64,000 nt of DNA from Closterium sp. NIES-65 (Eukaryota; Streptophyta; Zygnematophyceae; Desmidiales; Closteriaceae). A program made the position numbers and the translations under genes. Positions within the stretch are counted from its first letter, which is position 1, and each line of letters opens with the position of its first letter. Positions 49,636 through 64,000 of the stretch are shown here, one piece after another. The notes under the pieces were generated by a model. It was not told the DNA's origin, did no database searches, and was given only the letters and a program-made list of their open reading frames with translations. The DNA lies in contig CANXME010000233.1 of assembly GCA_948144175.1 (NCBI GenBank), forward strand, positions 372,001-436,000. The letters are read 5' to 3'.

Positions 49636-52600
49636 TCAGAAGATGCTGGCGAAGTCGCTGCCCTCCCAGCCCAGGCGTAGCATGTGATCCACCATCTTCA
49701 CACTCAGCTGCACGGGGACGAGGGGGGAGAGTGGGCAAGGCAAAAGGTGCAATTGGGGGGAAAGAGAATGGGAGTGAGGTGGGGAGATGGGGGGGGGGGG
49801 GGGGTTAGTGGAAACGGGAGTAAGGGGTGAACAACCACAACTGTTGAGCTTGTACTGGTACCAAGGAAGCTGTTGTCAGTGTTGATGTGTAAGAGGCCAC
49901 TGCAGAGTAGCTGCTACAGGCGTACCAGGGGGTTGCTGCAGCTGCTAGAGGCGTACCAGGGGGTTGCTGCAGCTGCTAGAGGCGTACCACGGGGTTGCTG
50001 CAGCTGCTAGAGGCGTACCAGGGGGTTGCTGCAGCTGCTAGAGGCGTACCACGGGGTTGCTGCAGCTGCTAGAGGCGTACCAGGGGGTTGCTGCAGCTGC
50101 TAGAGGCGTACCAGGGGGTTGCTGCAGCTGCTAGAGGCGTACCAGGGGGTTGCTGCAGCTGCTAGAGGCGTACCAGGGAGTTGCTGCAGCTGCTAGAGGC
50201 GTACCAGGGGGTTGCTGCAGCTGCTAGAGGCGTACCAGGGGGTTGCTGCAGCTGCTAGAGGCGTACCAGGGGGTTGCTGCAGCTGCTAGAGGCGTACCAG
50301 GGGGTTGCTGCAGCTGCTAGAGGCGTACCAGGGGGTTGCTGCAGCTGCTAGAGGCGTACCAGGGGGTTGCTGCAGCTGCTAGAGGCGTACCAGGGAGTTG
50401 CTGCAGCTGCTAGAGGCGTACCAGGGGGTTGCTGCAGCTGCTAGAGGCGTACCAGGGGGTTGCTGCAGCTGCTAGAGGCGTACCAGGGGGTTGCTGCAGC
50501 TGCTACAGGCGTACCAGGGGGTTGCTGCAGCTGCTACAGGCGTACCAGGGGGTTGCTGCAGCTGCTACAGGCGTACCAGGGGGTTGCTGCAGCTGCTACA
50601 GGCGTACCAGGGGGTTGCTGCAGCTGCTACAGGCGTACCAGGGGGTTGCTGTAGAGGATGAGCTGGCCGGGGGCGAGGTGAGCGGAGGTGGAGCAGAGCA
50701 GGTTGGTGTTGTCCGCTGACAGTGCCAGCGCTGTCACGTCTGTGCCCTCCGGCAGCTTGAAGCGACACAGCGCCTGCCAGCATGGCGCATGGCACACGCA
50801 CGAGAGGGATTGGGGAATGGGGGCAATGTTAAGCAAAGATGCTTGTAAGAGGATGGGGCATACAGTATAGAGTAGATGTTTAAGAGGGCTTGTTAGGGGG
50901 ATGGGAGAGAGTAGAGGCGGGCATGGGCGAGAGGAATTGAAATGCAGCTGGAGAAGGATGGGATGAAGCGGCATGGCTGCACCCGCAGCTTAAGGAGGAG
51001 CTCAGATGCACCTTGAGGGAGAAGAGGTCAAGAAGTGACACCGCTGATCCGCGCTCCTTCCGTGACCCCCCTTCGTCCGTGTTCCTCCAGTCCGGCAGTG
51101 CACCACCCCCCCCTGCTGCCGCCCCTCCACCCTCTCCCTCAACCTCCCTGCCCTCCCTCCTCTCGCCCTCTCCCTCCCTCCTCTCCTTGCCTGAATTCCC
51201 CCCCTCGCCTTCCTCCCCTCCTCTTTCCCCCTCATCCCGCTGCCCACGGCCCGTCCCCCCGTTCTCCCCTTCCAACGCCCCTCCTCCCTCGCCCTTCTCA
51301 CCGCCACCATCCGTCCCCCGCCCCTCAGCCTCTGTGAAGCTCCCAGCCTTCCCCAGCCCCACCTTCTCCCCGGCAATCACAGCAGCGCGCTCCCTCTCCT
51401 TCTGCCGTTCCTTCTCCCGCACATGCCGCCAGCGGCTGCAGTCCGTGCCCACAGCCACAAACAGCCCGTTGCTCGACACCTGCACGCTGCTCACATCGCC
51501 ATCCTCCTCCGAGATGCTCACCCCCGCCACCGCCGCTCCGTTGATCGTGAACGCCCGCAGCGCGCGCTGCCGCCGCTCCCACACCACCACCACCCCTTCA
51601 GGGGAGATGGCCAGCAGGTCCGCCGGCCCCACCCCCGGCAGGTGGCGCAGGAAGCGGCCCTTCATGAGGGAATGGAGGAGCACACCGCGGGAGCGCGAGG
51701 AGGAGGCAACGAGGTCGAGGTCCGAGGACACGGCGCAGCACAGGATGGTGTCCAAGTGGCCGCGCAGCACCTGCACGGGGCCTTCCATGCGCCGCCACTT
51801 CCTCGGCGCCTGCAGCCCCCCCGCCCCGCCCATGCCCCCGCCTGCGCTCAGCAGCAGTGCCGCCTCCGACATGCCACCCCCGCCTCCCCGCTCGGGGTAA
51901 TCCGCTCCTCCCACTGCCATGCTGCCTGCTCGTTCCTCGCTAGCCGACACCGCTGCAGCGGCAGCAGCCAGAGCAGGGTCGTGCGGGCCCGTGGGTGCTG
52001 CAGTGCTGCGCCTTGCCACACGCCCCCCCGCCCCCGCCCCAGCAGCCACGAGGCCAGCCGTGACCCCGGCGGCAGGGGAGGAAGGGAAGGGCGCGGTGGC
52101 GTGGTTGACTTGCCACAGCAGCACCACCCCGTCCGTGGCGCCGGTGGCGAGAGTGGCGCCATCAGGGGAGAGAGCCACGCACGTCACGGGGCCGCCATGC
52201 ACAGCAGCCGTCTCCAGCACGCGAGTCGAGTCCACTGACACCAGCTTCACAGAGAAATCCGCGTGCCCGCCTGTGAACAGAAACTTGCCGTCCGGGGAGA
52301 TGGCTATCATTTCCTTTCCCCCACCGCACCCTCCTTCCCCTCCCCCCCCCACCGCGCCTGCTGCTGTTGACGTGTGCTTTATCCCCGGAGCAGGGAGGGC
52401 CACGAGGCGCGGATAGAGGGATGTCTCGCTGTTGCTGCCCTTGCCGCCCAGCGCTGCCCCCGTCAGCATCCGCAGAATGGCACTACCTGTCAGCGAAGAC
52501 CGCCCGGGCTGGAACAAAAACGGCCAGCCGTGGCCGTCCGGGGTGTTGGGCTGCCACTGGTGCACCGCCACGTGGCAAGCAGGAGCATTGAGATCAACGG

Positions 52601-64000: not shown

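Follow-up and report, generated by a model that had tools for sequence, protein, structure and literature searches.

How do the minisatellites of a gene come to start inside its exons, each repeating the last exon bases together with the 5′ splice site that follows them? The question is raised by a BEACH-domain (BCHC-like) gene of Closterium sp. NIES-65, part of which lies in a stretch of 64,000 nucleotides (hereafter, the window; contig C233, 372001-436000). The gene occupies positions 49636-64000 of the window on the minus strand, with its stop codon near 49636, and extends past the window end; its exons were obtained with our own gene finder. The assembly comprises 874 Mb, and many of its loci appear as pairs or triples of contigs, mostly 98-100% identical, so that both haplotypes seem to have been assembled. 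The small subunit of Rubisco encoded in it fits chains of the land-plant type best (178.7 bits, against about 123 bits for the Chlamydomonas group), in accordance with a streptophyte. Elsewhere in the window, the tandem repeats of 1954-6563 recur as a matching series at 36758-41416, at a distance of about 34.8-34.9 kb, which gives the impression of a duplicated segment.

Arrays at the Exon Ends of a BEACH-Domain Gene

It had been predicted that six introns of this gene carry arrays spanning the donor, and TRF, together with the exon ends, finds all six in place on the minus strand: a 17-bp unit in 10.2 copies at 61671-61844 (exon end 61835, 10 exon bases inside the array), a 20-bp unit in 8.2 copies at 60107-60270 (exon end 60266, 5 exon bases), a 22-bp unit in 7.1 copies at 57754-57910 (exon end 57898, 13 exon bases), a 17-bp unit in 30.2 copies at 55578-56090 (exon end 56076, 15 exon bases), a 21-bp unit in 2.9 copies at 54324-54384 (exon end 54371, 14 exon bases) and a 31-bp unit in 24.0 copies at 49909-50651 (exon end 50639, 13 exon bases). 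Thus, all six start 5-15 bases before the exon end, and the unit consists of the exon end, the donor GT and some intron. At 56076, for instance, the minus strand reads ...AACGATGTCACCCAG at the end of the exon, followed by (GTAACGATGTCACCCAG)n, and its 30.2 copies bear out the expectation of up to 30 equivalent donors in a single array. No common unit was found when the six arrays were read side by side; apart from the donor GT the units differ between introns, each copying its own exon end, in agreement with the earlier view that a single spreading satellite is not involved. Beyond the window, in locus L071, a seventh array crosses a donor, with a 26-bp unit in 4.1 copies at the exon end 66550 on the window scale.

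Other arrays of the gene leave the donor out. A 37-bp unit in 11.2 copies (56330-56737, minus strand, TRF) starts 7 bases inside its intron (exon end 56745), and not about 20 bp inside it as initially proposed, and a 27-bp unit in 6.1 copies, beyond the window in L071, starts one base inside the intron at 69147. The arrays given as unanchored contrasts at 53190, 56875 and 62020 indeed cross no junction: the first (41 bp, 8.2 copies, 53193-53527) stops 11 bases short of the acceptor that precedes the exon starting at 53181, and the other two (24 bp, 5.0 copies, 56874-56993; 33 bp, 22.3 copies, 62024-62753) lie in intron interiors, all three being on the minus strand and delimited by TRF.

The BEACH region, spliced by hand, was aligned with the solved structures of LRBA (1t77, E=3.3e-123) and neurobeachin (1mi1, E=7e-119). 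The alignment is gap-free at the junctions SRR|YLL (57898), RRE|ITN (56745), TQ|YPV (56076) and KEL|IPE (54371), and its gaps fall elsewhere. Taking into account that the junctions at 57898, 56076 and 54371 carry donor arrays, use of the first donor would yield the conserved protein at these positions, the further copies being predicted to be intronic. The exon ends 61835, 60266 and 50639 were set by reading frame and splice signals only.

It might be thought that the arrays act as alternative donors, the extra exon copies diversifying the protein or, by shifting the frame, switching it off, and up to 30 intact donors per array would provide ample material for this. However, the exon ends lie within conserved BEACH sequence which aligns without insertion, and unit length is a multiple of three in only 6 of 20 units, which corresponds to the level of chance (7 of 21 if L081, a 42-bp unit omitted from this count, is included), so that we hold this role to be extremely improbable. 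The remaining 14 of the 20 units would shift the frame, as had been anticipated, and this lack of constraint on length is to be expected if the extra copies are never translated. Translation of the repeats themselves was also considered as a candidate and rejected, the units not keeping the frame.

Relation to Known Boundary Repeats

According to the original prediction, no description of such donor arrays existed. It does exist for amphioxus, in which the so-called mirages, minisatellite-like tandem duplications of exon-intron boundaries, have been described in Adh3, globins, TnC and PGBD5 (PMC3087553, PMC3902484). Mirages have units of 10-72 bp and 150-160 bp, affect both 5′ and 3′ boundaries, contain AG/GT in many of their copies and differ in copy number between haplotypes, while RT-PCR is reported to show regular splicing undisturbed; for the Adh3 mirage, somatic instability has been reported (PMC3087553).

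As in mirages, the tandem unit crosses the exon-intron boundary (six arrays in the window and one outside), both 5′ and 3′ boundaries are affected, here the latter in sister BEACH loci, and array length differs between contig pairs taken as haplotypes (12 of 38 comparisons). Unlike mirages, these arrays belong to a streptophyte and not to a cephalochordate, seven of them span donors of one gene, accompanied by a very large genome-wide count of the consensus-donor octamer, and short units show a strong bias for donors over acceptors. The arrays are of the mirage kind, and what is new is the host lineage, the scale and the 5′ bias; no report of boundary-spanning minisatellites in a plant or alga was found in the open-licence literature.

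Tandem duplication around splice signals is also the basis of a model of intron gain, attributed to Rogers, in which a segment containing AGGT is duplicated, as described for the potato RdRp (PMC4974935). In contrast to that model, the arrays described here enlarge existing introns and create none. As an origin of these arrays, AGGT intron gain was rejected: in seven arrays, the longest run common to the unit and the 30 bases past the acceptor is only 4-6 bases, and since the acceptor side is unrelated to the unit, the arrays would expand existing introns and not give rise to them. With ordinary intronic minisatellites, or VNTRs, they share unit sizes, homogeneity and copy-number differences, but the first unit here holds exon sequence and the donor. 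Introner elements are near-identical elements present in many introns, and constitute splice-site-associated repeats in algae; the arrays are likewise associated with splice sites, whereas every unit is local.

Donors and Acceptors in the Gene and across the Assembly

For the gene, 24 introns were set by hand from 69147 to 49710 (11,131 bases), and 18 intronic arrays with a TRF score of at least 100 and a unit of at least 14 bp, together 5,148 bases, were counted; the count leaves out one exonic array (58620-58683) and two arrays lying outside the set introns, at 73.4-73.8 kb. Seven of the 18 cross a donor and none crosses an acceptor, the expectation being 0.93 per end if arrays were distributed uniformly within introns (p=1.7e-5, a post hoc value, as the gene had been chosen for its arrays). 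A donor array is absent from 17 of the 24 introns. When scored as an octamer recurring 13-43 bp further on, 6 of 23 donors and 0 of 23 acceptors of the window gene are repeated, the donor rate being about 3-fold that of interior positions acting as a first copy (8.8%).

The same measure was applied to 19 further loci of the kinesin and BEACH families, their introns being those predicted by our own gene finder, and near repeats were found at 1 of 67 donors and 0 of 74 acceptors, with an interior first-copy rate of 1.6% (415 of 26,687). Thus, these loci have no donor excess for short exact units, the donor rate not exceeding that of the interior, although they do include donor arrays of longer unit (C53, 140 bp; C1670, 48 bp). 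An initial mask-penalised scan of the sampled loci had returned 5 donor and 5 acceptor matches, several of them of low complexity, and missed short exons adjacent to arrays. The kinesin loci L039/L058 (C1975, C850) and L055 (C822) have 46-48% GC and few arrays, compared with 51-64% GC in the other loci, and are possibly foreign contigs.

Across the whole assembly, octamers were used as a proxy, counting on both strands those pairs with 5-35 bases in between (recurrence within 13-43 bp), a range in which longer units are invisible. The consensus donor CAGGTGAG forms 42,549 near pairs among 99,645 occurrences (42.7%), whereas its reversal forms 546 among 24,046 (2.3%). For the acceptor-like CTTGCAGG, the figures are 439 among 49,000 (0.9%) and, reversed, 21 among 9,169 (0.2%), and several of the acceptor pairs listed are themselves donor-like (CTTGCAGGTGCG, CTTGCAGGTGAG). 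The weak donor GAGGTGCG gives 2,361 near pairs among 53,157 (4.4%), against 719 among 32,505 (2.2%) for its reversal, and CAGATGGG gives 2,026 against 655 reversed, these last two being pair counts only, without a rate.

The excess of near pairs is therefore huge for one consensus donor, and small for one weak donor and for the acceptor, which suggests that arrays are common in the genome and biased to intron starts, with an uneven effect. An excess of repeats at 5′ over 3′ splice sites, the lack of which was to count against the original observation, is supported by this proxy (42,549 of 99,645 donor octamers against 439 of 49,000 acceptor octamers). The broader notion that exon/intron junctions are repeatedly amplified holds strongly for the consensus donor and only weakly for GAGGTGCG, and at the 19 other loci a single donor among 67 is arrayed.

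A Sample of Arrays Carrying the Consensus Donor

The first 100 listed pairs of CAGGTGAG correspond to 20 arrays in 19 regions. Extrapolating from 20 arrays per 100 listed pairs, some 8,500 arrays would be present in the assembly, with a first-copy rate of about 15%, as opposed to the 1.6% of intron-interior positions at the 19 other loci.

Five of the 20 sampled arrays (L074, L075, L078, L086 and L091) are one dispersed GC-rich satellite with a unit of about 21 bp that contains CAGGTGAG, the unit in L091 being GGCGGCGGGGCCGCAGGTGAG; the L084 pair is not a TRF array. The satellite lends some weight to the idea that donor arrays in general derive from a dispersed satellite or mobile element with a donor in it, or else reflect a fault of the assembly, an idea already disfavoured, to which we give almost no credence. 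The window arrays and the remaining sampled arrays have mutually different units and, as regards a fault of the assembly, both assembled copies of the gene carry the same arrays wherever both are covered.

In the 14 non-satellite arrays, the sense coding score is higher upstream than downstream of the first donor in 13 (p=0.0009), the exception being L081; the five satellite arrays likewise score higher upstream. When antisense is included, the sense-upstream score is the top of four in 7 of the 14 (L076, L077, the second array of L080, L085, L089, L090 and L092; p=0.04 against 1/4). In Pfam, the upstream frame of L077 matches the molybdopterin domain MoCoBD_2 (E=1.4e-9, 38.3 bits, cut-off 27), which ends 8 residues before the donor, and L079 nearly matches TNPO3/IPO13 (transportin/importin; E=6.9e-6, 26.5 bits, cut-off 27) up to 36 residues before it, although the antisense coding score of L079 exceeds the sense one. 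At its end, L080 has a RING-like motif with a weak Pfam score (E=0.07). A blind gene finder placed an exon end exactly at the first donor in 3 of the 14 (L077, L083 and L085). Judging from these coding signals, a good part of the sampled arrays, not all of them, appear to start at true exon ends. It can be added that L080 (C10:464289-465920) carries two adjacent donor arrays, of 32 bp and 18 bp, the RING-like exon end being present once more ahead of the second.

A Proposed Mechanism and the Role of the Donor

We consider it probable that these are mirage-type minisatellites, that is, tandem duplications spanning the junction and hidden by splicing at the first donor. The proposal draws on the arrays and their boundaries, the agreement of the first donor with the protein alignment at three of them, the copy differences between contigs and the donor/acceptor octamer asymmetry. 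A short tandem duplication across the exon-intron boundary would initiate the process, with slippage or unequal exchange then lengthening or shortening the array. Where the boundary is a 5′ splice site, exon and donor would both stay intact in the copy next to the exon; this first donor would be the one picked by the spliceosome, and the remaining copies, donors included, would leave with the intron. Expansion at the donor would thus not change the mRNA. With a short unit across a 3′ splice site, new AGs would appear upstream of the true one and alter the mRNA, and the survivors would be few, with units long enough to include their own branch-point and pyrimidine region.

If tolerance were the whole explanation, arrays should be equally dense at donors and in intron interiors, whereas the consensus octamer lies above the interior (about 15%, extrapolated, against 1.6%). 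Taking this into account, some factor beyond tolerance may act at consensus donors. One possibility is that donors are preferred sites of array birth, owing to a mutational process linked to the 5′ splice site, such as co-transcriptional R-loops or breaks at that site, or slippage between GTGAG-like microrepeats. The near-pair rate of CAGGTGAG (42.7%, compared with 0.2-2.3% in the three reversed controls), its extrapolated first-copy rate, several-fold above the intron interior, and the 7 of 18 arrays that lie on donors of the gene, where 0.93 were expected, speak for such a process. However, the weak donor GAGGTGCG is only 2-fold above its control, just 1 of 67 donors is arrayed at the 19 other loci, no more than about half of the octamer arrays in the sample show their best coding signal at the first donor, and the mechanism is a purely proposed one. 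We therefore regard a preferred birth at donors as unlikely.

A more far-reaching reading, which we put forward only tentatively and would not expect to hold in full, is that the consensus 5′ splice site seeds minisatellites, so that thousands of independent exon-end arrays would have arisen by a donor-directed process beyond tolerance, acceptors being spared unless the unit carries the whole 3′ splice region. About three quarters of the some 8,500 extrapolated octamer arrays would not be the known satellite. Our confidence in this seeding is low, all the more as the unselected sample speaks less clearly for it once antisense coding scores are counted.

Should equivalent donors indeed be arrayed at thousands of exon ends, they would constitute a natural experiment on how the spliceosome chooses among identical donors, and also on what lets tandem duplications persist at 5′ splice sites when they so seldom do at 3′ ones. 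They would moreover provide a large set of candidates for the study of intron lengthening and of minisatellite origin at a defined sequence, for which amphioxus offers only a few genes in the two papers cited (PMC3087553, PMC3902484).

Copy Number and Constraint

The window gene was compared with contig C1, 98.6-99.4% identical in long alignments. Four of the 19 arrays in the region differ in copy number: the 20-bp array (8.2 in the window, 7.2 in C1), the 17-bp array at 56076 (30.2 and 29.2), the 37-bp array (11.2 and 8.2) and the 33-bp array (22.3 and 16.9). The arrays at 61835 (10.2), 57898 (7.1), 54371 (2.9) and 66550 have equal copy numbers in both contigs, and the 31-bp array at 50639 is outside the coverage of the other contig. 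Across 11 contig pairs regarded as haplotypes, copy number differs by 0.8 or more in 12 of 38 array comparisons; two of these pairs share no array, one array entered the comparison twice, and C255/C1652 (96-97% identical) may be paralogues. A 19-bp array at C309:65729-65866, located 10 bases inside a predicted intron, has 7.3 copies, and 30.2 in C2092.

These differences bear on the proposal that multiple donors are kept by selection, improving U1 recruitment and splicing efficiency, which we find distinctly improbable. It would account for the far greater amplification of the stronger of the two donor octamers tested, and GT is intact in all 80 copies read across the seven donor arrays of the gene. 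Nevertheless, this invariance is not significant relative to other positions (0 changes of 160 against 25 of 1,611; p=0.16), copy number varies between the contig copies, and most introns of the gene that were set (17 of 24) lack a donor array.

Repeats at 3′ Boundaries and Long Units

The splicing-hidden duplications proposed above would leave few 3′ survivors. In the window gene, boundary-spanning arrays occur at the 5′ side only, and arrays at the 3′ boundary were found in three sister BEACH loci, with units of 107 bp (L072, C553:925849-926125), 128 bp (C1670:683293-683645) and 159 bp (C1770:5910350-5910895). In L072 and C1670, the upstream copies of the exon start have decayed, with stop codons, and the last copy continues into the true exon. 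These three cases suggest that duplication of an acceptor may do no harm only where a branch-point region of its own comes along with it.

A rule of unit length for 3′ arrays is only weakly supported, because long units also exist at 5′ boundaries and acceptor pairs are no more common at long than at short gaps. Regarding the former, 5′ arrays with units of 140 bp and 48 bp occur in C53 and C1670, respectively; the former (C53:922861-923247) repeats a BEACH exon end three times in units of 140 bp, with the different donors GTGCGC, GTGTGA and GTGAAT, the copies being open in different frames. Regarding the latter, 439 acceptor octamer pairs have 5-35 bases in between and 424 have 90-120 bases (23 in the long-gap control), a figure which is no estimate of long units, as small arrays also give such gaps. 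Finally, in L072 (C553:926212-926505), an 8-bp array (TGTGGGCA, 36.8 copies, and 39.8 in the paired contig) starts one base inside a predicted intron, at the donor.
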